Shown here piece by piece: positions 46,399 through 58,949 of a stretch of 64,000 nt of DNA. The stretch is from Nitrospirota bacterium. GTDB taxonomy: Bacteria; Nitrospirota; 9FT-COMBO-42-15; HDB-SIOI813. The stretch is taken from contig JADZCV010000008.1 of assembly GCA_020851375.1 (NCBI GenBank), forward strand, positions 1 through 64,000, written 5' to 3'. The translations under genes were made by a program, and so were the position numbers. The notes beneath the pieces were generated by a model. It was not told the origin of the DNA. It ran no database searches and saw only the letters and a program-made list of their open reading frames with translations. How positions within the stretch are numbered: position 1 is the stretch's first letter; each line of letters opens with the position of its first letter.

Positions 46399-47214
46399 GT
46401 GACAAGTATAATAATAATTACAGACCTGGATGGCACCCTGCTGCATCCGGCAAGCTATTCGTTTAAGGATGCTATTCCTGAGCTTGAGGAAGCTCATACG
46501 GCGAATATTCCGGTAATTCTTTGCTCCAGTAAGACCAGGGCTGAAATTGAAGTATACCGCAGGCAGTTGAATAATCACGACCCGTTCATTTCTGAGAACG
46601 GAGGCGGAATCTTCATTCCTGCCGGATATTTTGCAGGTTCTGAGAAAAGTCGCAGGGATGACGAATACATCGTAACGATTCTTGGCAGGCCATACAATGT
46701 TATCAGGAGAATATTTAATGATATCCGGGACAGAACAGGGATAAGAGTAAGGGGATTTGGCGATATGAGTCCGGAAGAAGTGGCACAGCTTACAGGTATG
46801 GAGTTATCAGATGCCAGGTTATCAAAACAGCGGGACTTCGATGAGCCTTTTGTTTTTGAAGAGGGGGAAAAACGTGTTGAAGAGTTTCTGAATGCAATTG
46901 AGAAAACCGGACTGCACTGGACGCAGGGGAGATTTTATCACATCCTCGGTGACAATGATAAAGGGAAGGCCGTCAGGATGCTCATGGATTATTATAAAGA
47001 AACCCGGAAAATTATTGTTACAATCGGTCTTGGTGACAGTTTCAACGATCTTCCACTTTTGGAGAATGTGGACTATCCTGTTCTTGTTCAGAAGGAGGAC
47101 GGGAGTTATGAGAAGAGAATAAAACGTGAAAACCTTATTTATGCGAGTGGTATAGGTCCTGCCGGATGGAGCAGAGAGGTTAGCAAACTTATAAGAAGGA
47201 TAAGAGAGAATTAA
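46399..47214 (+). CDS. mpgP: Mannosyl-/glucosyl-3-phosphoglycerate phosphatase (MpgP/GpgP-type HAD hydrolase)
   Basis: The product is a 271-residue HAD-IIB phosphatase. Motif I is ITDLDGTLL (nucleophilic Asp at the first D), motif II SSKT, the cap carries GRPYNVIRRIFNDI, and motif IV GLGDSFNDLPLL. This set matches the family that removes phosphate from mannosyl- or glucosyl-3-phosphoglycerate to give the compatible solute. The window has a GpgS-like synthase at 54561, so glucosyl-3-phosphoglycerate is the more likely substrate. GTG 46399 is the start. A degraded copy of the same gene lies at 49346-49529. Confidence 0.85.
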   Translation: MTSIIIITDLDGTLLHPASYSFKDAIPELEEAHTANIPVILCSSKTRAEIEVYRRQLNNHDPFISENGGGIFIPAGYFAGSEKSRRDDEYIVTILGRPYNVIRRIFNDIRDRTGIRVRGFGDMSPEEVAQLTGMELSDARLSKQRDFDEPFVFEEGEKRVEEFLNAIEKTGLHWTQGRFYHILGDNDKGKAVRMLMDYYKETRKIIVTIGLGDSFNDLPLLENVDYPVLVQKEDGSYEKRIKRENLIYASGIGPAGWSREVSKLIRRIREN

Positions 47215-47253: not shown

Positions 47254-48456
47254 ATGGAGGCATCCGAATTTTTTCTGAAGTTACTTGTAATCATCCTGTC
47301 CGCAAAGTTCCTTGCCGAAGTCTTTGCATATATAAAGATCCCCTCTGTCCTCGGTGAGGTTGTTGCCGGCATCATCATTGGACCCAGCCTTCTCGGATTC
47401 ATTGAGCCTGTTCCAACCTTCTATCTCCTTGCAGAGATCGGGATACTGCTTCTCCTCTTCGAGGTTGGTCTTGAGACAGATGTAGGACAGATTATCAGGG
47501 TTGGGGGACAATCCTTTCTTGTAGCGGCAACAGGGGTAATCGCCCCGGCTGTATTCGGGTTCTGGGTATCCCATTACGGATTCGGTCTCTCACTTATCCC
47601 CTCCCTGTTTATTGGCGGAACGATTGTGGCCACGAGCATTGGCATTACTGTCCGGGTTCTGGTAGATCTGAAGAAAGAAAAGACCAGAGTATCCAGGATC
47701 GTACTCGGGGCTGCTGTTTTAGATGACGTTATTGGTGTGGTCATCCTTGCTGTTCTTTATGACTTTGCAGTAAAAGGAACAGTTAATGTCTTCAACACGA
47801 TAAAGATACTGGCCTTCATCACTATCTTTCTTCTTATTGCACCAGTCATCGCAAAATTGTTCGTTCCGATGTTGGCAAGGTTAACATTGATAAGCAAAAC
47901 AAAGGGGATGGCGCCCACATTAATAATATCGGTGATCCTTATCCTCGCTGTTATTTCTCATAAGGTCGGTGCCCCTGAAATATTGGGATCTTTTGCTGCA
48001 GGAATTGCGCTGGCAAGACGTTTCTTTTTCCCATTGGGCTCAACCATTGATCACTACAGCCACCAAATGGCGGAAAAGATCGAGGATAGCATGAAGCCGA
48101 TTATCGAACTCTTCGTCCCGCTCTTTTTTGTCATGGTTGGGGTGTCGATCAACTTCAGGGTTATTGACCTTGCCTCAGGGGCCTTCTGGGGATTTGCCGG
48201 CATATTGACAATTACCGCCGTTATCACAAAGATGGTCAGTGGTATATGGGTCAAGGGTGGCTGGAACAGGAAGCTTTCTACAGGGATTGCAATGGTGCCG
48301 AGGGGGGAAGTGGGGCTCATATTTGCTGAAGTTGCAAAAAGGGGCGGTATATTCAATGATGAGACCTATGCAGTAGTTGTATTTGTAGTAGCCCTGACAA
48401 CGCTCCTCGCCCCTCTTGCCCTGAGATATTTCATGGAGGATGACTCGGAGACTTAG
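47254..48456 (+). CDS. CPA2-family cation/proton antiporter (Kef/NapA-like, membrane part only)
   Basis: The product is 400 residues with about 12 hydrophobic helices. Typical CPA2 segments are PSVLGEVVAGIIIGPSLLGF near the N-terminus, LDDVIGVVILAVLYD with the conserved Asp pair region, and APEILGSFAAGIALARR. Near the end MVPRGEVGLIFAEV matches the conserved helix of Kef/NapA transporters. There is no cytoplasmic NAD-binding or TrkA-N domain. It exchanges Na+ or K+ for H+ and fits an ion-homeostasis and osmotic-stress role with its neighbours. GGAGG lies upstream. Confidence 0.93.
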   Translation: MEASEFFLKLLVIILSAKFLAEVFAYIKIPSVLGEVVAGIIIGPSLLGFIEPVPTFYLLAEIGILLLLFEVGLETDVGQIIRVGGQSFLVAATGVIAPAVFGFWVSHYGFGLSLIPSLFIGGTIVATSIGITVRVLVDLKKEKTRVSRIVLGAAVLDDVIGVVILAVLYDFAVKGTVNVFNTIKILAFITIFLLIAPVIAKLFVPMLARLTLISKTKGMAPTLIISVILILAVISHKVGAPEILGSFAAGIALARRFFFPLGSTIDHYSHQMAEKIEDSMKPIIELFVPLFFVMVGVSINFRVIDLASGAFWGFAGILTITAVITKMVSGIWVKGGWNRKLSTGIAMVPRGEVGLIFAEVAKRGGIFNDETYAVVVFVVALTTLLAPLALRYFMEDDSET

Positions 48457-48575: not shown

Positions 48576-48929
48576 TCAGCTCCTGATCCTGTAACCATTC
48601 CTTTCAAGAATTATCAACTTCCCGCTGAAAGAAGGGGATTTGTATTGATTTAAAAGGAGATCTAATGAAGGCAGTATATATTCCAGAAGTGGCGGATGTA
48701 TTCTTATATGAATTATTCCGGATGTCTTCCCAGGGGGGTATTTCAGAATATTGCCAAAGTGTTTATCAAACGTTATAACAGTCCGATCTTCTTCTTTGGC
48801 CATACGCATAACTTCGTCATCTATACTTTTGAAGATACCTTCTTCCTGGAGAGATTTTACATCATGCCCCTTATCACGGAGATGGGCAGTAATTTTAGGG
48901 AAAATATTTTCGTCAGCAAGAAATTTCAA
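48576..48929 (-). CDS. DUF5615 PIN-like toxin
   Basis: The product is 117 residues. FLADENI at the start, DDEVMRMAKEEDRTVITFDKHFGN in the middle and the following GIIHIRI strand fit the DUF5615/Mut7-C PIN-like nuclease pattern with Asp ligands in ADEN and TFDKHF. Such proteins are toxins of DUF433-linked toxin-antitoxin pairs and probably cut RNA. The ATG overlaps the stop of the DUF433 gene (ATGA), giving tight coupling. The pair sits inside the osmoadaptation island. Confidence 0.88.
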   Translation of the reverse strand: MKFLADENIFPKITAHLRDKGHDVKSLQEEGIFKSIDDEVMRMAKEEDRTVITFDKHFGNILKYPPGKTSGIIHIRIHPPLLEYILPSLDLLLNQYKSPSFSGKLIILERNGYRIRS

Positions 48930-49562: not shown

Positions 49563-51212
49563 GTGGATGAAGAATGGAGGAAGAGATTGGATTTTGAGAG
49601 TTTGACATATAAATTAATCTCCTATCTGAAAAATATCCCAGGCAAGATGGCAGCCGAGGTCAACCATCGCACGGTGATCAAGGACATCTACCTCGAAGTG
49701 GATATATCTCCTGGCTACTTTCTCTTTCTGACACTTGCCAATTTGATTGCCCTGTCCGGCCTGATTACAAACAGCGCAGCGGTCATCATCGGCGCCATGT
49801 TGATCTCCCCATTGATGGGGCCGATCCTGAGCTGCGGTTTTGCATTTATCACAGGGGATTGGACAATTGGAAAGAAAGCCCTAAGGAAGGTGACCCTCAG
49901 CGTTGCCGTCACTATTGTGATAGCGGCCTTTGCAACCTATCTGTCTCCCCTGCATGAAGTGACAGATGAGATACTATCGAGGACAAGACCGAATCTCTAT
50001 GACCTGATCATCGCCTTTTTTGCTGGCATCGCCGGTGCGATCGCGATATGTACGAGGAAGAATTACATCACGATAGTCACCGGTGTGGCGATTGCCACAG
50101 CAGTCATCCCTCCCCTGAGTGTTGCAGGATTCGGTATGGGGACGTGGAATTTCTATGTTGCAGGTGGCGGATTTTTTCTCTTCTTTACAAACTTCGTTGC
50201 CATCATCTTTGCCACCTCCATCATCTTTTTCCTCTACGGATTCAAACCTGGAATCATTACAGAGATCGGGATTGCACAGCTCAGGAAGAGGATTATCATC
50301 CTTACACTCAGTTTTATCATAATTGCAATTCCCCTGATCTATACCCTCCATGTCTCTGTATCAGAGGTAAGGCTAAGGGGTAATATCAATTTTGCTTTGA
50401 AGCAGGAATTCGACGTGGAAAGACGTTCCCATCTGGCCACTTTCGGATATGTTGAGGGAGAAGAGGATACACTTGAGATCAGCGCCATTGTCAACACCGT
50501 GGACTATCTGAAGGAGGCTGAGGTAAAAAGGATTGAGGAAAAGGTTGCCCGCTATCTCAATCGGGATGTTATACTGAATGTGGAGCAGGTGCGAGTGCAG
50601 ACAGGAGGATTGAAGGAAGAAGCGGCGAGATCACCTTTACTGCCGACCCTTGTCCCTTCAAGACCTCCATCTGAAATTATCAGGAGCTCCCGTGAGGATT
50701 CTCTGGGGACTATCAGAAAGACCGTAGAAAAAATTGACAGGATAATTGCTCCTTCTATTGTGGATGATTTCTATATAGGCTTTCACTATAAGGCAACCCC
50801 TGTTGTTGTCAGCCTTAAGATAAAAAAAGATACCCCCATGACAGAGTCGGAGATTCAGTGGCTCAGTAAAATACTTTCTGAAGACCTGGGTCACCCGGTT
50901 GATCTGAAGGTGGAGACCATCCCGTTTATCACTCCTCTGGTCTTCAACAGGGGGGAGACAACTCTGTCAGATGAGATGAAGACTGTGCTGCTGGAAATAA
51001 AAAAGGTCTATCAAAGGGATCCATCATCTGAATTTGTTGTCGAATCCTATCCTGAAACAGCGAGCCGGAAGGAGAAGATGCTTGCAGAGGAAAGAGCAGG
51101 TATTGTTGTTAATATCCTTGTGGATGAATTTAAGATACCCCGTGAATCTGTAAAAAAAATAGTTCATAGAAGTACAATGAAATCACCTGTTGTAAGGATT
51201 TCTGTTTTATAG
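49563..51212 (+). CDS. DUF389 membrane protein with an added C-terminal domain
   Basis: The product is 549 residues. The DUF389 core (about 50-270) has SGLITNSAAVIIGAMLISPLMGPI and DLIIAFFAGIAGAIAICTRKNY, with five or six membrane helices. A BON- or TCR-like alpha/beta region follows, and a final part (about 465-549) with FNRGETTLSDEMKTVLLEI and AEERAGIVVNILVDEFKI resembles OmpA-like periplasmic domains. Transport function has been suggested for DUF389, but the substrate is unknown. GTG 49563 was chosen as the start; no ribosome site is obvious. It could work in osmotic sensing. Confidence 0.85.
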   Translation: MDEEWRKRLDFESLTYKLISYLKNIPGKMAAEVNHRTVIKDIYLEVDISPGYFLFLTLANLIALSGLITNSAAVIIGAMLISPLMGPILSCGFAFITGDWTIGKKALRKVTLSVAVTIVIAAFATYLSPLHEVTDEILSRTRPNLYDLIIAFFAGIAGAIAICTRKNYITIVTGVAIATAVIPPLSVAGFGMGTWNFYVAGGGFFLFFTNFVAIIFATSIIFFLYGFKPGIITEIGIAQLRKRIIILTLSFIIIAIPLIYTLHVSVSEVRLRGNINFALKQEFDVERRSHLATFGYVEGEEDTLEISAIVNTVDYLKEAEVKRIEEKVARYLNRDVILNVEQVRVQTGGLKEEAARSPLLPTLVPSRPPSEIIRSSREDSLGTIRKTVEKIDRIIAPSIVDDFYIGFHYKATPVVVSLKIKKDTPMTESEIQWLSKILSEDLGHPVDLKVETIPFITPLVFNRGETTLSDEMKTVLLEIKKVYQRDPSSEFVVESYPETASRKEKMLAEERAGIVVNILVDEFKIPRESVKKIVHRSTMKSPVVRISVL

Positions 51213-51267: not shown

Positions 51268-52620
51268 ATGACAATAAATAAAGAATATCTTATTGATATC
51301 TTCAACTTTGCAATCAAGGCGGCAGACCCTTATCGAGCAGTCATGGGGAAGCTAAGAGTCGCCGGTGATAAGATAATCCTCCCTGAAGAGGAGTATAACC
51401 TCAACGGTTTCAGGCGGATAGTTGTGATAGGGGCGGGGAAGGCTGTGTCTCCAATGGCACGTGCCATCGAAGAGATATTTGAAGGTAAAATTGAGGAGGG
51501 GATTATCATTGTCAAGTATGGACACACGGGATTACTCAGAAAGGTCAGGCAGATCGAGGCATCCCATCCGCTTCCTGATTTCAATGGTGTCAGAGGAACG
51601 AATGAAATAATGGATGTGCTGAAAAGGGCGGATGAAAAGACTTTGGTTATCTGCCTGGTATCCGGTGGCGTCTCATCCCTTCTTGTTTCACCTATAGATG
51701 ACGTGGGTCTGGAAAATAAACGGGCTGTTACAGATCTTCTTCTGAAGGCAGGGGCTAACATCGATGAGCTAAATGCAGTCAGGAAACATATCTCCAATGT
51801 CAAAGGTGGCAGGATGGCGGAACTGGCCTACCCTGCTACTATATATACAATGATCCTTTCTGATGTAATCGGCGACAGGCTTGATGTTATTGCCTCAGGG
51901 CCGACCGTACCTGACCCCACTACATATAAAGATGCTGTAGAGGTTATAAGGAAATATGGACTTGAAGACAGGATTCCTGTCAGGGTAGTGAAGATTTTAG
52001 AAGGTGGTGAGAAAGGGAAGCATAAAGAGACACCAAAGGGCGGTGAAGAGTTTTTTAGAAAGGCAAGGACAGTCATCTTAGGGGGAATAAAAGAGGCGAT
52101 TGATGCTGCCAGGGAAAAGGCTGAAGCCATGGGGTTTACAGTTGACATAGTGACGTCGGAACTTCAGGGGGAGGCGAAAGAAGTGGCAAAGGACCTTGCT
52201 GTCAGGGCAATAGAAGCAAGAAATGACATGAAGGCCGGTGATAAACCCCTCTGTCTCATCTCCGGCGGAGAAACAACTGTCACAGTAAAAGGAAACGGTC
52301 TCGGCGGAAGAAACCAGGAGCTTGCCCTCGCCTTTGCTATAGAGATTGCAGGAAAAAGGGGGATAACGCTCCTATCCGCCGGCACTGACGGCACTGACGG
52401 CCCTACGGAGGCTGCAGGAGCCATCGTGGACAGCAGGACGATGTCTCTTGCAAGGGAATACGGGCTTGATGCAGAGTTTTATCTTGAGAATAATGATTCA
52501 TATCATTTCTTTGAAAAACTCGATTCCTTGTCGCGTGAGCGGCATCATTTAAAGACCGGCCCTACTGGTACCAATGTAATGGATCTTCAAATCATCATGG
52601 TAGACAAACATGAAAACTGA
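51268..52620 (+). CDS. Glycerate 2-kinase (MOFRL family)
   Basis: The product is 450 residues. The family motifs are LVSGGVSSLL, NAVRKHISNVKGGRMAELA, SDVIGDRLDVIASGPTVPDPT and, in the C-terminal MOFRL domain, LISGGETTVTVKGNGLGGRNQE and SAGTDGTDGPT. It phosphorylates D-glycerate to 2-phosphoglycerate. Its stop overlaps the start of a glycosyltransferase gene by 11 nt, so the two are co-translated. In this context it would control glycerate as substrate or breakdown product of glycosylglycerate solutes. Confidence 0.93.
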   Translation: MTINKEYLIDIFNFAIKAADPYRAVMGKLRVAGDKIILPEEEYNLNGFRRIVVIGAGKAVSPMARAIEEIFEGKIEEGIIIVKYGHTGLLRKVRQIEASHPLPDFNGVRGTNEIMDVLKRADEKTLVICLVSGGVSSLLVSPIDDVGLENKRAVTDLLLKAGANIDELNAVRKHISNVKGGRMAELAYPATIYTMILSDVIGDRLDVIASGPTVPDPTTYKDAVEVIRKYGLEDRIPVRVVKILEGGEKGKHKETPKGGEEFFRKARTVILGGIKEAIDAAREKAEAMGFTVDIVTSELQGEAKEVAKDLAVRAIEARNDMKAGDKPLCLISGGETTVTVKGNGLGGRNQELALAFAIEIAGKRGITLLSAGTDGTDGPTEAAGAIVDSRTMSLAREYGLDAEFYLENNDSYHFFEKLDSLSRERHHLKTGPTGTNVMDLQIIMVDKHEN

Positions 52621-53824
52621 GAAGGCGGACATCCTCGTCGGGATCGCAAGTTTTAATAACGCAGGTACAATAGGTCATGTGGTGAAGGCCGTGGATGCAG
52701 GGCTTGTGAAATATTTCCCGGATAAAAAGGCGATTATCGTCAATTCCGATGGAGGATCCAGGGACGGGACGCCGGATATTGTGAAGACTGCCACCCATGA
52801 CCAAGCCGCGATCTTTCTATCCCACCCTGTATACCCGGCCCACAGGATCAGCATTCCCTACAACGGGATCCCAGGGAAAGGGAGCGCCTTCAGGGCCATT
52901 TTCCGCAAGGCTGTCGAGATGAAGGCTGAGGCATGTTGCGTGGTGGATGCTGATTTACGCAGCATAACGCCTGAATGGGTGGAGCTTCTTTTGTCCCCTG
53001 TAATTCAAAATGGATTTGACTTTGTAGCCCCACTCTACAACAGGCATAAATATGATGGAACGATTACTAACTCAATCGTCTATCCTCTAACAAGGGCCCT
53101 CTATGGCAGGAGGATCAGGCAGCCAATAGGAGGTGAGTTTGGATTTTCAGGAAGAATGGCTGATTTTTACATGTCTCAGGAGGTATGGGAAAGTCATGTG
53201 GCCCGCTTTGGTGTTGATATATGGATGACAACAGAGGCGATTGCCGGTGATTATAAAGTCTGTCAGACCTTTCTGGGGGCAAAGATCCACGACCCTAAGG
53301 ATCCGGGTTCAGACCTTGCGGATATGCTGCTGCAGGTGGTTGCTACCCTGTTTGCCCTGACAGAGAAACACTATGACAAGTGGAAGGATGAAAAGGGATC
53401 GTCAGAGGTTCCGACTTTAGGCTTCAGATATCAGGTCGGACTTGAATCCGTAAAGGTGAATGCAGAGAAGATGCTTAACATATTCAGGGCAGGGCAGGAA
53501 AATCTTCGGGATATATGGTTGAAGATAATAGGACAGGGGGATTTTGGTGAGATAGAACGTCTCAGTCGTCTTCCTGACGCGTCATTTAAATTTCCTGATG
53601 GATTATGGGCAAAGGTTGTATATGACTTTATCATTGCGTATCATAGAAAGGTGATGGCGCCGGAACACCTTATCAGGTCGCTTGTACCATTATATCTTGG
53701 AAAAACTGCATCATTTGTGCTTGAAGTGGAAAACATGGAACAGGAAGGTGCGGAGGCCTGCATAGAGAAATTGTGTCAGGAGTTTGAAAATAACAAAGAT
53801 TATCTTATAAGTAACTGGAAATGA
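52610..53824 (+). CDS. GT-A glycosyltransferase resembling glycosylglycerate synthases
   Basis: The product is 404 residues. Features are ILVGIASFNNAGTIGHVV at the N-terminus, SDGGSRDGT, a DADL metal motif (D-x-D) near residue 110, and GGEFGFSG and FGVDIWMTTEAIAGDY, with the W-x-T-E pattern seen in mannosyl-/glucosylglycerate synthases. It has no membrane helix. It could be Ggs (NDP-glucose + D-glycerate) or an MggA-like enzyme that extends the solute. I cannot choose between these; the overlap with glycerate kinase (11 nt) favours a glycerate-linked acceptor. Confidence 0.75.
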   Translation: MKTEKADILVGIASFNNAGTIGHVVKAVDAGLVKYFPDKKAIIVNSDGGSRDGTPDIVKTATHDQAAIFLSHPVYPAHRISIPYNGIPGKGSAFRAIFRKAVEMKAEACCVVDADLRSITPEWVELLLSPVIQNGFDFVAPLYNRHKYDGTITNSIVYPLTRALYGRRIRQPIGGEFGFSGRMADFYMSQEVWESHVARFGVDIWMTTEAIAGDYKVCQTFLGAKIHDPKDPGSDLADMLLQVVATLFALTEKHYDKWKDEKGSSEVPTLGFRYQVGLESVKVNAEKMLNIFRAGQENLRDIWLKIIGQGDFGEIERLSRLPDASFKFPDGLWAKVVYDFIIAYHRKVMAPEHLIRSLVPLYLGKTASFVLEVENMEQEGAEACIEKLCQEFENNKDYLISNWK

Positions 53825-53836
53825 GGAGGTGATATT

Positions 53837-54550
53837 ATGGAGAACTTTATGGAGTTGTTATTTCAGCCGCTGATTAATTTTGGAATAAAAGTCTTTGAGT
53901 TTGTACCAAATGTGCTGGCAATGCTGATTATCTTTATCGCCGGTTTCTTATTCTCCCGCCTCATTAAAATGTTTTTGTTGCGGCTCTTCAGGGTTACAAA
54001 CTTTGACAGCTGGTGTGACAGGGCAGGTTTGACCGCTATTATAAGAAAAGGGGATATATGGTCAAAACCATCAGAGGTATTCGGGGGTATAATCTACTGG
54101 TTTCTTATTATACTATTTCTGATGATCGGATTCAGCGCCCTTCAGTTGCAGACTATTGACAATCTGACAGCACAATTCTTTCTCTATATCCCGCGGGCAT
54201 TTTCCGCTCTTATCATCCTTATCGGGGGTTACATGTTTGCCGGTTTTATCAGCAGGGCAGTGTTGATCACCGCAGTTAACAGCGGATATCACTATGCAAA
54301 GATACTTGCCGAGGCAGTGAGGCTTCTGCTGATTGTGCTAATTCTTGCGATGGCGCTTGAACAGCTTCAGATAGCGCGGGGTATAGTGATAGCAGCCTTT
54401 TCCATAGTCTTTGGCGGCATTATACTTGCCCTTGCAATAGCATTTGGCATAGGCGGAATAGATGCAGCGAAAAGGATAATCAGCGCCGGCGGGGCGGAGC
54501 ATAAAGGGGACAGGAGGAATGAAAAAGAAAGAGATGCTGAACATTTATAG
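53837..54550 (+). CDS. CmpX-like membrane protein with TM-helix repeats
   Basis: The product is 237 residues with four or five hydrophobic helices. Two repeats of a conserved helix pair (VPNVLAMLIIFIAGFLFSRLI and IPRAFSALIILIGGYMFAGFI) are the TM_helix domain of CmpX/MscS-related proteins. The MscS beta-domain that gates a pore is missing. A charged tail (KGDRRNEKERDAEHL) ends the protein. It probably belongs to the mechanosensitive or envelope-stress set of the cluster. It starts 12 bp after the glycosyltransferase stop. Confidence 0.85.
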   Translation: MENFMELLFQPLINFGIKVFEFVPNVLAMLIIFIAGFLFSRLIKMFLLRLFRVTNFDSWCDRAGLTAIIRKGDIWSKPSEVFGGIIYWFLIILFLMIGFSALQLQTIDNLTAQFFLYIPRAFSALIILIGGYMFAGFISRAVLITAVNSGYHYAKILAEAVRLLLIVLILAMALEQLQIARGIVIAAFSIVFGGIILALAIAFGIGGIDAAKRIISAGGAEHKGDRRNEKERDAEHL

Positions 54551-54560
54551 GAGGTGAAAG

Positions 54561-55769
54561 ATGGCGGATTTCTATCAGACTGATTTAATAATTACATTGC
54601 ACAGGCTTGGAAGTCCGGGGCTGGAAAGGATTGAGTCTGAACTCAGGGAATTTTCCAGACAGCGTCCCATTGCGCTGGTGCTCCCTGCGCTCGTTACTGA
54701 GTTTCAGAGAGATGCTATCAAAGGTATAATTGCAGAGTTAAAAAAGGTCAGATACCTCAGTGAGATTATCCTGGTTCTTGGCAGGGCAAGTGACAAGGAA
54801 TTCAGTTATGTCCGGGAGTTCATGTCCCAGCTTCCATGTGAAGTCAGGATTATTCATAATGAGGGTAAAAGGGTTAAGGAGATTTATGCCACACTCGAGA
54901 GAAATAATGTCTCGGCGGGCGAGGATGGGAAAGGACGCTCTGCATGGTTTGCCTATGGATACATATTAGCCAATGCACAATCTGAAGTCATTGCGCTGCA
55001 CGATTGTGACATAGTTACATACAACCGGGAGATGCTCGCCAGATTATGCTATCCGGTTGCCAATCCTAATATAGACGTAGTGTTTTGCAAAGGCTTCTAC
55101 AGCAGAATTACCGACAAGATGCACGGAAGGGTGACGCGCCTCTTAATGACTCCGCTCATCAGGGCCATGCAAAAACTTGTGGGGCCGAATCCATTCCTTC
55201 TTTTTCTGGACAGCTTCAGATATCCGCTTGCCGGGGAATTTGCAATGATAACTGATATGGCAAGGACTAACAGGATACCGTGGGATTGGGGGCTCGAGGT
55301 TGGCGTGCTGTCAGAGGTCTTCCGGAATTATTCACCGCACCGTGTCTGCCAGGTTGATATAGCGGATAACTATGAGCATAAGCATCAAATACTTTCCGCT
55401 GATGATGCCCAAAAAGGATTGATGAGGATGTCTGTGGACATTTGCAAGTCCATGTTCAGATTCCTTGCTGCAGAGGGGATTGTCATGTCAGACAGTTTTT
55501 TTAAATCGCTTCAGGTGGCATACATCAGACTTGCAGAGGATACCATGGTAAAATACGAGGCGGATGCAGCGATAAATGGACTCATATTTGACAGGCATGC
55601 GGAGGCAGGCGCTGCAGAGGCATTTGCAAACGCTATAAGGATAGCTTCTGAGGCATATTCAGAAAACCCTATGGCCGCCCCGCTGATCCCAAACTGGAAC
55701 AGGGTTACATCAGCCATACCTGGAATTCTTGATATGCTGAAGAAGGCTGTAGACGAGGACAACAGATAA
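54561..55769 (+). CDS. gpgS: Glucosyl-3-phosphoglycerate synthase (GT81, GpgS-like)
   Basis: GpgS transfers glucose from an NDP-glucose to 3-phosphoglycerate, the first step of the phosphorylating route to glucosylglycerate. The 402-residue protein has IALVLPAL, IHNEGKR, the metal motif HDCDIVTY (D-x-D), PLAGEFAMI and DWGLEVGVLSEVF, which correspond to the GT81 acceptor and metal sites. The C-terminus has IPNWNRVTSAIPGIL. The intact MpgP-like phosphatase at 46399 supplies the second step. GGAGG precedes the ATG and 10 bp separate it from the CmpX-like gene. Confidence 0.85.
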   Translation: MADFYQTDLIITLHRLGSPGLERIESELREFSRQRPIALVLPALVTEFQRDAIKGIIAELKKVRYLSEIILVLGRASDKEFSYVREFMSQLPCEVRIIHNEGKRVKEIYATLERNNVSAGEDGKGRSAWFAYGYILANAQSEVIALHDCDIVTYNREMLARLCYPVANPNIDVVFCKGFYSRITDKMHGRVTRLLMTPLIRAMQKLVGPNPFLLFLDSFRYPLAGEFAMITDMARTNRIPWDWGLEVGVLSEVFRNYSPHRVCQVDIADNYEHKHQILSADDAQKGLMRMSVDICKSMFRFLAAEGIVMSDSFFKSLQVAYIRLAEDTMVKYEADAAINGLIFDRHAEAGAAEAFANAIRIASEAYSENPMAAPLIPNWNRVTSAIPGILDMLKKAVDEDNR

Positions 55770-55817: not shown

Positions 55818-56171
55818 CTATTTGATCCTTTTCTTCGTTCTGGCTATGACCTTCTTTACAGACTTCTGTGCCTCTTTTTCCAGTTTGACGATCTGTGATT
55901 CAATCTTCCTGATCTTTGAAATTGCGGTTTTGACCTTATTATCCAGCATAGGATTTTTCACTTTTGAACTTAAGTCATATATTTTGCCGCCCAACTCAGA
56001 AATCTCTTTTTGAACTTTTGTCTTAAGGAGAAATATCCGGTACCGTCTCTTGCCTTCTTCCGTCATTACTTCGGCCTTCTCTTTTGCTGATGCGACACCC
56101 TCTTTCATTACTGCCACCCCGTCCTTTAACCCTTTTTGCACATCTTTCTTGATCTTCTGCCAGAAATCCAT
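55818..56171 (-). CDS. Small lysine-rich coiled-coil protein
   Basis: The product is 117 residues, with no membrane segment, rich in Lys and Glu. A helical N-terminus (FWQKIKKDVQKGLKDG) is followed by AVMKEGVASAKEKAEVMTEEG and a long coiled coil KIRKIESQIVKLEKEAQKS. It resembles small stress proteins of the YtxH or apolipoprotein-like kind only in composition. A GGGGGAAAA run precedes the ATG. It points toward gpgS (convergent). Confidence 0.8.
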   Translation of the reverse strand: MDFWQKIKKDVQKGLKDGVAVMKEGVASAKEKAEVMTEEGKRRYRIFLLKTKVQKEISELGGKIYDLSSKVKNPMLDNKVKTAISKIRKIESQIVKLEKEAQKSVKKVIARTKKRIK

Positions 56172-56272: not shown

Positions 56273-56306
56273 TTAATTGTTTCGTGATTTCCAGACTATT
56301 CACATT

Positions 56307-57377
56307 ATGGATTCAAATTTAAAAGGCATATTAATACCGTCAGCGACAACTATCCTGTCAATCGCTGTTCTGCTTGTCCTCAGGAATATAGCATTCGGAA
56401 TCCTCAACAAATGGGCACGAATGACAGAAACAGACATTGACGACATCATCATCAGGTCTTTTAAGACCCCCTCCATCTACTGGATCATAGCAATAGGGCT
56501 GTATATCGGAGTCGCCATATCAGGGCTTCCTGAGAAATATATCTTTTATCTGAGCAAGACCATCCATGTCATTGTGATCCTTTCAGTTACGGTTGCTACA
56601 GCCAATCTGTCGGGTAAAATATTTACCACTTACATACAGAAGTCGAAACTGCCGATCCCCACAACAGGTCTTGCCAACGTTATATTAAAGGGGGTCATCC
56701 TGATTCTGGGTCTCCTGATTGCTTTAAGCGTCATCGGAATTTCTATCACCCCCTTTCTTACAGCCCTCGGAGTAGGCGGCCTTGCCGTTGCCCTTGCCCT
56801 TCAGGATACGCTGTCCAACCTCTTTGCAGGGGTACATATCCTTGTGGAAAAATCGGTCAGTGTCGGAGACTTCATCAAACTTGAGACCGGACAGGAAGGG
56901 TGCGTTGATGATATCACATGGAGGACTACCCGAATCAGGATGCCCAACAATAACATGGTTATCATACCTAACAGTAAACTCTCTCAAAGTATTGTGACAA
57001 ATTACAATCTTCCTGAAAAGAGTATGTCACTCGCAATCCCCATCGGGGTCAGCTATTCTTCGGAACCTGAAAAGGTCGAGCAGATTCTGATCGAAGAGGC
57101 AACAAAGGCCGTTGGTCATATCCCCGGGCTGCTCGGAAATCCTGGGCCTGCTGTACGGTTTATCCCTGGTTTTGGAGAGAGCTCCCTTAATTTCACCCTC
57201 GTATGTCAGGTGAAGGAGTTTACGGACCAGTTTCCTGTTCAGCACGAACTGAGAAAGATTATACTTAAGAGGTTCAGGGAAGAAGGGATAGAGATACCTT
57301 TTCCGCACAGGACAGTCTATCTCCGGGAGGAAGATGAGTGGAAAAAACAGGAATCTTCGGGTTCCGGTAATTCGTAA
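56307..57377 (+). CDS. MscS-family mechanosensitive channel
   Basis: The product is about 356 residues. Three or four helices (about 10-160) end in the pore helix region GVGGLAVALALQDTLSNLFAG, the hallmark of MscS. The beta-domain follows with VGDFIKLETGQEGCVDDITWRTTRI and MPNNNMVIIPNSKLSQS. The C-terminal part has VAIPIGVSYSSE-type strands (SLAIPIGVSYSSEPEK). It would open under membrane tension to release solutes, the natural release valve for an osmolyte island. I chose ATG 56307; a TTG 10 codons earlier is possible. Confidence 0.93.
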   Translation: MDSNLKGILIPSATTILSIAVLLVLRNIAFGILNKWARMTETDIDDIIIRSFKTPSIYWIIAIGLYIGVAISGLPEKYIFYLSKTIHVIVILSVTVATANLSGKIFTTYIQKSKLPIPTTGLANVILKGVILILGLLIALSVIGISITPFLTALGVGGLAVALALQDTLSNLFAGVHILVEKSVSVGDFIKLETGQEGCVDDITWRTTRIRMPNNNMVIIPNSKLSQSIVTNYNLPEKSMSLAIPIGVSYSSEPEKVEQILIEEATKAVGHIPGLLGNPGPAVRFIPGFGESSLNFTLVCQVKEFTDQFPVQHELRKIILKRFREEGIEIPFPHRTVYLREEDEWKKQESSGSGNS

Positions 57378-57556: not shown

Positions 57557-57991
57557 ATGGAATGGTGGATCTGGATTCTGCTCGGTCTTGCACTATTATT
57601 GGGGGAGCTGCTTACACCAGGCGGTTTCTATATTATTTTTTTCGGCATCGGTGCCATAGTGGTGGGTACACTTGCCGGTTTTGGTGTAGCGGGTCCTGCC
57701 TGGTTTCAGGTTATTCTATTCTGTGTAGCCTCGGTTGTCACCCTCGGGTTGTTTCGCGGACGGCTTCTCCAACTGACTTACGTAGAAAGCCGGGACGACA
57801 TCGACAGCCTGGTTGGCGAAACAGCGGTCATGATGGAGGAAGTCCCGGTTAACAACGTTGGCAAAGCCGAGATGCGCGGGACATCCTGGAGTGCGCGTAA
57901 CATTGGAGAGCGAACCTTGTCGCTCGGAGAGCGCTGTAAAGTGGAACGCGTTGAAGGCCTCACAATCTTCGTCCGCGCCGAACAAAAGTGA
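57557..57991 (+). CDS. NfeD-like membrane protein
   Basis: The product is 144 residues: about four short hydrophobic segments (1-75), then a soluble OB-fold domain (about 80-144) with GETAVMMEEVP and VERVEGLTIFVRAEQK. This is the short NfeD1b form that partners SPFH proteins. It ends 14 bp before the SPFH gene. Codon use is richer in CGN arginine codons than the AGG/AGA-dominated neighbours, as in the next gene. Confidence 0.9.
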   Translation: MEWWIWILLGLALLLGELLTPGGFYIIFFGIGAIVVGTLAGFGVAGPAWFQVILFCVASVVTLGLFRGRLLQLTYVESRDDIDSLVGETAVMMEEVPVNNVGKAEMRGTSWSARNIGERTLSLGERCKVERVEGLTIFVRAEQK

Positions 57992-58004
57992 AACGGAGGA
58001 AACC

Positions 58005-58949
58005 ATGGGCGTATTAAGTGTCGTCATCATATTGGCAGTTGTAATTATGGTTATCGTCGCCAAGACGGCCGTAGTAGTTCCGCAACAGAGTGCATACGTA
58101 GTTGAACGACTGGGAAAATACAGCGGCACGCTCAGCGCCGGGTTTCATATTCTCATCCCCTTCCTCGACGTGGTTCGCTACAGACATTCTTTGAAAGAGC
58201 AGGCCATAGATATACCGCCCCAGGTTTGTATAACAAGGGATAATGTGCAGGTTTCCGTTGATGGTGTGCTTTACCTGAAGACTCTTAACCCCGAGCGTGC
58301 TTCCTATGGTATCGGCGACTATATCTTCGGTATCACCCAGCTCGCCCAAACGACACTGCGCAGCGAGCTCGGTAAGATTGAGTTGGACCGCACCTTTGAA
58401 GAACGGACCAACATCAACACCCAGGTTGTCAGTGAACTGGACAAAGCCTCCGAGCCGTGGGGCATCAAAGTCATGCGCTATGAGATAAAGAATATTACGC
58501 CGCCTCAGGATATCCTTGCGGCAATGGAGAAACAGATGCGCGCAGAGCGGGAAAAACGGGCGCTCATTTTGACCTCCGAGGGACAAAGAGATGCCGCCAT
58601 CAACAGTGCTGAGGGCGAGAAACAACAGGCGATCAAGGCCTCCGAGGGGAAGAAACAGCAGCAAATCAACGAAGCCGAAGGTCAGGCGGCAGCCATTCTC
58701 GCCATCGCTGATGCCACAGCTAACGGGATACGCAAGGTCGCCGAAGCGATTCAGCATCCAGGTGGGTTTGAGGCGGTGCAACTACGTGTCGCCGATAATT
58801 ATCTGACTCAGTTCGGTAAACTTGCACAGGAAGGAAATACCATGATCTTGCCGGCTACCCTGAGTGATGTGGGCTCAATGGTCTCACTCGCAATGAACGT
58901 TATTCGACGCCAGGGCACGGGCAGCGCTGACGGGACAGGCAAATCGTAA
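58005..58949 (+). CDS. SPFH-domain protein (stomatin/QmcA-like)
   Basis: The product is about 314 residues. One N-terminal membrane helix (about 2-22) precedes the SPFH domain (VVPQQSAYVVERLGKYSG, DVVRYRHSLKEQAIDIPPQ) and a coiled-coil flotillin-like tail with repeats of EGEKQQAIKASEGKKQQ. These proteins form membrane cages that control proteases such as FtsH. ATG 58005 has a CGGAGGA site (57994-58000); an earlier in-frame start overlaps NfeD. Arg codons are mostly CGN, which differs from the rest of the window and suggests horizontal acquisition of the NfeD-SPFH pair. Confidence 0.93.
   Translation: MGVLSVVIILAVVIMVIVAKTAVVVPQQSAYVVERLGKYSGTLSAGFHILIPFLDVVRYRHSLKEQAIDIPPQVCITRDNVQVSVDGVLYLKTLNPERASYGIGDYIFGITQLAQTTLRSELGKIELDRTFEERTNINTQVVSELDKASEPWGIKVMRYEIKNITPPQDILAAMEKQMRAEREKRALILTSEGQRDAAINSAEGEKQQAIKASEGKKQQQINEAEGQAAAILAIADATANGIRKVAEAIQHPGGFEAVQLRVADNYLTQFGKLAQEGNTMILPATLSDVGSMVSLAMNVIRRQGTGSADGTGKS

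Follow-up and report, generated by a model that had tools for sequence, protein, structure and literature searches.

The window analysed here is a 64,000-nucleotide stretch of a Nitrospirota contig (JADZCV010000008.1; host genome 2.5 Mb in 49 contigs). Its forward strand carries a run of genes for a glycerate kinase, a glycosyltransferase (GT), a small membrane protein (Msc1) and a protein of the glucosyl-3-phosphoglycerate synthase family (GpgS), with a gene for a mannosyl/glucosyl-3-phosphoglycerate phosphatase of the MpgP type further upstream (Table 1). The steady partners of the GT are GpgS, another protectant-making enzyme, and Msc1, not the neighbouring glycerate kinase. The GT probably contributes to the synthesis of a sugar-glycerate that protects the cell under salt or drying stress. 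The reading that we tentatively prefer is that it is an active transferase with the fold of mannosylglycerate synthase (MgS), adding a second sugar within a compatible-solute module made up of GpgS, the MpgP-type phosphatase, the GT and Msc1.

Co-occurrence of the glycosyltransferase and GpgS

The dependence of the GT on GpgS is seen in a set of 198 Nitrospirota genomes. The GT or a paralog is present in 91 of these; G084, G111, G116, G118 and G154, which hold only a divergent paralog, were set aside, leaving a canonical set of 86 genomes. GpgS of either type is found in all 86 (methanogen type in 83, another type in 3). The canonical GT without GpgS occurs in no genome, GpgS without the canonical GT in 3, and neither gene in 109. 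The canonical GT genomes that lack a methanogen-type GpgS are exactly the three in which the two proteins are fused (G006, G025 and G034), with a GpgS-like N-terminal half and a GT C-terminal half in one open reading frame (ORF). The classic GpgS model (NF010496, curated cut-off 262) gives a match above threshold in the same 3 of 198 genomes, at the fusion and at 365.2 to 374.3 bits (365.3 bits for the GpgS half of G034 alone); three of the genomes without matches are not itemised in the output of that search. The MpgP-type phosphatase accompanies the canonical GT in 82 of 86 genomes. The kinase does so in 85 of 86, yet it is also present in 48 of the 112 genomes without a canonical GT.

Many of the genomes compared are metagenome-assembled. 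Distribution within genera was also considered, which reduces the effect of descent. In 12 genera, 14 genomes selected by eye in the tables lack both GT and GpgS although congeners carry both; 9 of them, spread over 8 genera, reach a completeness of 95% or more. The kinase persists in six of the 14 and the phosphatase in one. The list leaves out G084 and G154, which behave like the 14 in having no GpgS but carry a dead paralog, together with G111 and G116, which are discordant and are considered below. These within-genus co-absences provide better support than the Fisher values on the 198 genomes, which are uncorrected for descent.

A second sample comprised 247 genomes around G205, a genome reached via an Acidobacteriota locus. 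Here a GT match is present in 70 genomes and a GpgS match in 46, and all 14 genomes with a GT of at least 50% identity have GpgS. Of 74 GT-family ORFs read in this sample, 51 keep D113, D115, D203 and H227 and 23 have lost catalytic residues. For 46 of the 51 intact ORFs, GpgS is found in the same genome.

At the level of gene neighbourhoods, the best 80 loci of at least 579 confirmed relatives were scanned in named genomes from Nitrospirota, Acidobacteriota, Gallionellaceae and other Proteobacteria, Aminicenantes, KSB1 and Zixibacteria; the sample is biased to close relatives because the best scorers were kept, and some loci are cut by contig ends. Msc1 is present in 79 of the 80 loci and mostly adjoins the GT (in L102 and L105 it lies upstream, not directly behind). 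GpgS is encoded in 52 loci, the MpgP-type phosphatase in 50 and the glycerate kinase in 23. Among the 28 loci that lack a local GpgS, 24 belong to genomes that carry it elsewhere.

Fold and active site of the glycosyltransferase

Among solved structures, the best match to the AlphaFold2 model of the GT is MgS of Rhodothermus marinus (PDB 2bo4 and 2y4j-2y4m), an enzyme of family GT78 that glycosylates D-glycerate. The superposition on 2y4k (Z 34.8, root-mean-square deviation 3.5, 360 residues of a 380-residue chain, 17% identity) runs the whole length of the protein, the C-terminal part included, and Foldseek agrees (E 8.4e-16). GpgS (family GT81) comes second, at Z 19.7 over 227 residues, and the lipid-linked GT2 enzymes ArnC (Z 17.2) and GtrB (Z 17.0) lie further down the list. 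A profile built from 57 GT sequences likewise finds MgS (4.1e-6) before GpgS (0.003). This ranking emerges from the profile alone: the single GT sequence searched against the PDB finds GpgS best (4.7e-5), followed by MpgS of R. xylanophilus (0.066), and does not find MgS at E up to 1. In a tree, the GT groups with MgS and away from both GpgS types (support 92/85), MgS being a partial row on a very long branch. The earlier note on this DNA had assigned the GT to the glycosylglycerate-synthase type, against a possible grouping with lipid or polysaccharide transferases. That assignment is well supported, and a transferase of the latter kind is not favoured by the fold list.

The residues that line the MgS active site are retained. 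The profile alignment pairs D100, D102, R131, I138, T139, D192 and H217 of MgS, as numbered by counting along that alignment, with D113, D115, R145, I152, T153, D203 and H227 of the GT. None of these seven GT residues varies among the 57 aligned rows. R131 and D192 of MgS presumably have active-site roles. In PMC2581804, H217 of MgS is described as a metal ligand, and the acceptor carboxylate as held by Val186/Thr187 in GpgS and by Ile138/Thr139 in MgS. The D-x-D motif claimed in the earlier note is thus present, as D113-A-D115. Taken together with the model, this conservation suggests that the GT is an active transferase, and a retaining one if its mechanism is that of MgS. The Q-P-I-G-G-E/D motif of the GT is near both MgS and M. 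hassiacum GpgS and allows no decision on the donor sugar.

A W-x-T-E signature, also proposed earlier, does not stand. The sequence reads W205-M-T-T-E209, and while W205, the following Met and T207 are invariant, only 20 of the 57 rows have Glu at position 209 and 31 have Thr. MgS and GpgS both lack a Trp at the aligned position, and the motif was rejected as a family signature.

The GT differs from both relatives. With GpgS it shares the GT-A core, the D-x-D motif, the His ligand and the Val/Ile-Thr acceptor motif, but it aligns with MgS instead to the C-terminal end. Its NCBIfam match, to the glucosyl-3-phosphoglycerate synthase model NF010496, is weak (53.5 bits against a cut-off of 262), no match to NF040724 appears at E up to 0.01, and the protein stays below the GpgS family cut-offs. 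Moreover, the position of GpgS Arg185, a phosphate contact, is Thr151 in the GT (Thr in 56 of 57 rows, Ser in 1). From MgS it is set apart by its low identity, by its company of GpgS, phosphatase and Msc1, and by H146 (57/57), K147 (56/57) and K230 (57/57), at positions that are Ala, Ser and Tyr in MgS. These three side chains might suit an acceptor that is larger or more acidic.

Msc1 and the catalytically dead paralogs

The protein encoded behind the GT is predicted to be all helical (237 residues, pLDDT 90.1). Its seven best fold rows are all MscS, and its model aligns with the MscS transmembrane core at Z up to 10.6 (root-mean-square deviation 6.5, about 106 residues), although a Z under about 13 possibly reflects a common helical arrangement. 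Pfam finds PF05552 alone, with neither PF00924 nor PF21082, placing Msc1 without the beta domain and cage of MscS. The model is thus suggestive of an MscS pore that lacks the cage.

Adjacency to Msc1 extends to GT-family members that have lost their catalytic residues. In 142 GT-family ORFs that were read, a count that holds repeats and some places twice, 126 are intact (104 with Msc1 directly behind, 22 without) and 16 are dead, all 16 with Msc1. L053 and L083, the same place counted twice, were scored as non-adjacent because an overlong frame hid Msc1. Two GT-family ORFs are overlong, L216 (706 amino acids) and L192 (680 amino acids), and may hold another domain or a too-early start.

Around G205, none of the 23 dead ORFs has a GpgS match in the same genome; 22 adjoin Msc1 and the last is cut by a contig end. 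Msc1 adjoins only 12 of the 51 intact ORFs there. Intact catalysis is associated with GpgS (Fisher, 1.2e-14) and with the state of Msc1 (2.7e-9), both values being inflated by descent: catalysis was lost in a single change on the tree of these ORFs, so the p-values from this set are not independent evidence, and a paired test reduces to one pair with no power. A quick tree of 96 ORFs requires 3 state changes, at least 2 of them forced by starred branches, and places 33 dead copies with the intact L040 in one group and L036 apart. The pairing of the GT fold with Msc1 has thus outlasted at least two losses of catalysis, whereas the copies that lie beside GpgS have remained catalytically intact.

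The dead copies sit mostly in trehalose operons. By tblastn, 34 of 35 dead-GT loci contain Msc1, none contains GpgS, and 21 contain trehalose synthase (TreS), including 15 of the 16 loci of at least 10 kb, L036 being the exception; the 161 other loci have TreS in 2 and GpgS in 83. Both locus counts include repeats and many short loci. The trehalose synthase model TIGR02456 is above cut-off in 6 of 6 neighbouring ORFs tested (L043, L045, L166, L167, L168 and L179). In L043 and L045 the dead GT also has a TreT-like protein nearby, which scores below the model cut-off of 775; L043 and L168 carry a putative maltokinase. The 'GlgE' neighbour of dead GTs was named by eye and has no NCBIfam family at 1e-20. 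For the dead copies that are most distant (L166-L168 and L219-L233), the alignment behind the residue calls is weak, and L218 is cut by a contig end.

Two of the loci with a trehalose operon deserve description. L043 (1939-10699) places a dead GT and Msc1 within a trehalose operon with TreS, the TreT-like protein, the GlgE-looking protein and the putative maltokinase. L040 (4451-5947) has a catalytically intact GT and Msc1 in a trehalose operon and groups with the dead copies, possibly representing the state before catalysis was lost.

Glycerate kinase and phosphatase

The earlier note had started from the overlap of the kinase and GT frames, proposing co-translation, a GT that acts directly on D-glycerate, and a kinase that tunes the acceptor pool. 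The overlap is indeed 11 nt on the forward strand (Table 1; the note's start, 52595, lies 15 nt 5' of the GT ATG), and co-translation would be consistent with it. As the main clue to function the overlap was rejected on the kinase distribution given above, namely 23 of 80 loci and presence in genomes without a canonical GT. The proposed partnership survives in part. In 8 of the 80 loci the kinase and the MpgP-type phosphatase form a single ORF, with either partner first, which links the kinase to the pathway and keeps it as a genuine side member; that it explains the GT gene is not supported. It belongs to the module as an optional component, and the fusions fit glycerate recycling. The phosphatase comes first in L081, L084, L086, L088, L092, L095 and L100, and the kinase in L114. 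That such a fusion should occur in a solute operon in two opposite orders is odd and unexplained.

Proposed pathway and alternative readings

GpgS dependence, the fusion and the near-constant phosphatase together place the GT reaction within the GpgS pathway and not as a free-standing alternative to it; for a reaction placed there, a second glycosylation of the GpgS product is tentatively favoured, with direct use of D-glycerate close behind. In the resulting scheme, GpgS would form glucosyl-3-phosphoglycerate. The GT would then put a further sugar on this compound, or on glucosylglycerate, giving a product like glucosylglucosyl- or mannosylglucosylglycerate, and the phosphatase would take off the phosphate. 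Msc1, with the GT at its cytoplasmic side, may help to retain or release the solute on turgor change. The glycerate kinase would merely feed free glycerate back to central metabolism. Of this scheme, the comparisons establish the module, the predicted fold, the intact catalytic residues, the GpgS dependence and the constant presence of Msc1, whereas catalytic activity, acceptor, second sugar, a contact of the GT with Msc1 and solute release are inferred.

Several observations weigh against this scheme. The MgS fold and the invariant I152-T153 suit a small glycerate acceptor at least as well, and Thr151 at the Arg185 position would leave a phosphorylated acceptor without the familiar anchor there. 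Dual routes to one solute reportedly exist in one organism (Rhodothermus, Persephonella and Petrotoga). Four named GT genomes (G199, G208, G217 and G224) have no match to the window GpgS at 1e-10 and likewise no classic GpgS over cut-off. Among the three Nitrospirota genomes with GpgS and no canonical GT, the contig of G026 starts 59 bp ahead of Msc1, and the lack of a GT there may be no more than an assembly gap; G111 and G116 are discordant. Around G205, 4 of the 46 GpgS genomes (G271, G350, G446 and G464) have no GT match, no GpgS was found in four genomes with an intact GT (G260, G273, G365 and G381), and that of G455 is only partial, beside the GT at a contig end. Finally, co-occurrence gives no order of steps.

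The best GpgS-like candidates in G208 and G224 (L154 and L155) proved to be further intact GT copies and were rejected as GpgS.

It is also possible, and a reading to be taken seriously, that the GT makes glucosylglycerate (or mannosylglycerate) in one step from D-glycerate and an NDP-sugar, in line with the earlier note. It would then work in parallel with GpgS and the phosphatase, which lead to the same solute in two steps, and the kinase would drain the pool of D-glycerate. The full-length MgS fold, the first rank of MgS by profile, and the retention of seven MgS positions where the GpgS Arg185 position is lost all point this way, as do the kinase-phosphatase fusions and the kinase in nearly every canonical GT genome. 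In Persephonella marina, ggs reportedly shares an operon with gpgS and gpgP, and the enzyme that it encodes is reported to have used ADP-glucose and D-glycerate in vitro. However, an independent route should outlive the loss of GpgS, and in the 198 genomes the canonical GT is never found without it; the two are instead jointly absent from the 14 genomes whose congeners have both. Fusing two redundant enzymes would have little use, and the kinase is also common where the canonical GT is missing. The presence of GpgS in every canonical GT genome, fused to the GT in three, thus leaves D-glycerate unsupported as the physiological acceptor; direct use of it is not settled, because GpgS dependence suggests that the GT acts on the GpgS product.

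It seems unlikely that the GT serves mainly to activate GpgS and Msc1 or to scaffold them. The precedent is an unrelated GT of Thermoproteus tenax, which according to PMC3634074 activates the trehalose synthase/phosphatase TPSP by complex formation and has an MscS-like MSC in its operon. Consistent with such a role, dead paralogs keep Msc1 in nearly all their loci, mostly in trehalose operons, and in Nitrospirota 9 of the 12 dead copies read share a genome with GpgS elsewhere (7 of these also with a canonical GT). The T. tenax protein is, however, a GT4 enzyme of GT-B fold and so no relative, the catalytic residues are invariant in the group to which the window GT belongs, and dead copies lie beside GpgS in none of 35 loci. 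That the GT is an ordinary GT2-kind transferase for lipid or polysaccharide, in the cluster by chance, is highly improbable: PF00535 is over cut-off and ArnC and GtrB appear in the fold list, but MgS and GpgS rank above them, and GT, GpgS and phosphatase co-occur across genera.

A broader proposal, which we regard as doubtful, would join the second-sugar reading to the dead paralogs. The MgS-fold GT would form the cytoplasmic half of a cage-less MscS-type pore; in its catalytic, GpgS-tied state it would make the sugar-glycerate, and in its dead state, with at least two origins and mostly in trehalose operons, it would only sense or gate. If so, solute synthesis and release would be coupled by one bacterial protein pair, and the same coupling would have been invented separately in Thermoproteales with an unrelated GT. 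The dead-enzyme version in trehalose operons could be used to separate catalysis from channel control.

Relation to known systems

The closest published arrangement found is the msc-gt-tpsp operon of T. tenax. In PMC3634074, MSC is a 197-amino-acid protein like the transmembrane region of MscS, and the arrangement is said to be unique to Thermoproteus and Pyrobaculum. Like the module in the window, this operon brings together a solute synthase, a GT and a protein resembling the MscS transmembrane region. It differs in concerning trehalose and a GT4 enzyme of GT-B fold, whereas the window module concerns a sugar-glycerate and a GT-A enzyme with the MgS-like fold; because the T. tenax GT belongs to GT4, the likeness is convergent. 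The bacterial trehalose version with a dead GT is a strikingly parallel case. No published description of a GT-Msc1-GpgS module was recognised in the open-licence literature, mostly at title level.

Two further comparisons bear on the acceptor. The glucosylglycerate synthase (Ggs, EC 2.4.1.268) of P. marina reportedly occurs in a gene set with gpgS and gpgP that matches the GT module, a likeness of gene set alone. This enzyme and the GpgS/GpgP pair are cited in PMC3899277; PMC11009771, PMC6608630, PMC2674218 and PMC2874817, as consulted for Ggs, gave no information on its sequence. By analogy of gene set, the P. marina enzyme may be the true relative of the GT; on the broader proposal above, and if orthologous, this 'glucosylglycerate synthase' would be the missing enzyme for a two-sugar glycerate. 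The MggA/MggS pathway of Petrotoga and Rhodopirellula, compared by description only, would share the logic of a second sugar after GpgS; MggA and MggS may be of another GT family, and no membership of the GT among them is claimed. The solute of these organisms, mannosylglucosylglycerate, is described in PMC3694870.

For an unnamed GT that occurs in Nitrospirota, Acidobacteriota, Gallionellaceae and other groups, the analysis proposes a place in osmolyte synthesis that can be tested. It raises the question of whether the one-step and the two-step route should be seen as alternatives, and it draws attention to osmolyte-making enzymes that are repeatedly paired with small pores of the MscS kind.

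Other features of the window

The family assignments in Table 1 differ in strength. The best NCBIfam glycerate 2-kinase model gives the kinase 249.8 bits, below the model cut-off of 550, and the phosphatase reaches 233.4 against the narrower TIGR02461, under its cut-off of 244.35. The DUF389 gene upstream of the GT recurs in L075 and L076, and the antiporter gene in L075.

Table 1. Positions of genes, motifs and residues in the window
Feature	Position	Strand	Evidence
MpgP-type (HAD-IIB) mannosyl/glucosyl-3-phosphoglycerate phosphatase family	46399..47214	+	TIGR01486 249.1 bits, over cut-off 164.75
CPA2-type cation/proton antiporter	47254..48456	+	PF00999 219 bits; present too in Desulfuromonadales locus L075
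DUF389 membrane protein, weak OmpA-like C-terminus	49563..51212	+	PF04087 138.6 bits; present too in L075, L076
Glycerate kinase, MOFRL-type glycerate 2-kinase family, 450 amino acids	51268..52620	+	PF13660 281 bits, PF05161 142 bits, both over cut-off
GT, MgS-like GT-A fold, 404 amino acids	52610..53824	+	ORF; PF00535 29.5 bits, over cut-off; AlphaFold2 mean pLDDT 88.8; VIA Z 34.8 to MgS 2y4k
Overlap of kinase and GT frames, 11 nt	52610..52620	+	ORF coordinates
GT D113-A-D115, metal/nucleotide motif	52946..52954	+	Asp at both ends in 57/57 rows; aligned with MgS D100/D102
GT R145-HKYDGT-I152-T153-N154, candidate acceptor loop	53042..53071	+	Aligned with MgS R131, I138-T139; R145, I152, T153 invariant 57/57
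GT D203	53216..53218	+	Aligned with MgS D192; Glu in GpgS
GT H227	53288..53290	+	Aligned with MgS metal ligand H217
Msc1, small membrane protein (PF05552), MscS-pore-like, without cytoplasmic cage	53837..54550	+	Pfam; model; 79/80 loci
GpgS, methanogen-type glucosyl-3-phosphoglycerate synthase family	54561..55769	+	NF040724 343.9 bits, under model cut-off 700
Full MscS-type channel	56277..57377	+	PF00924, PF21082, PF21088 over cut-off

Some neighbouring ORFs were characterised by eye. Positions 57557-58949 encode an NfeD-looking membrane protein followed by a SPFH/stomatin-looking protein. On the reverse strand, a 117-amino-acid ORF at 48576-48929 is DUF5615/PIN-like in appearance, and a second of the same length at 55818-56171, between GpgS and the full MscS channel, is coiled-coil-like, with a sub-cut-off DUF5344 match only.

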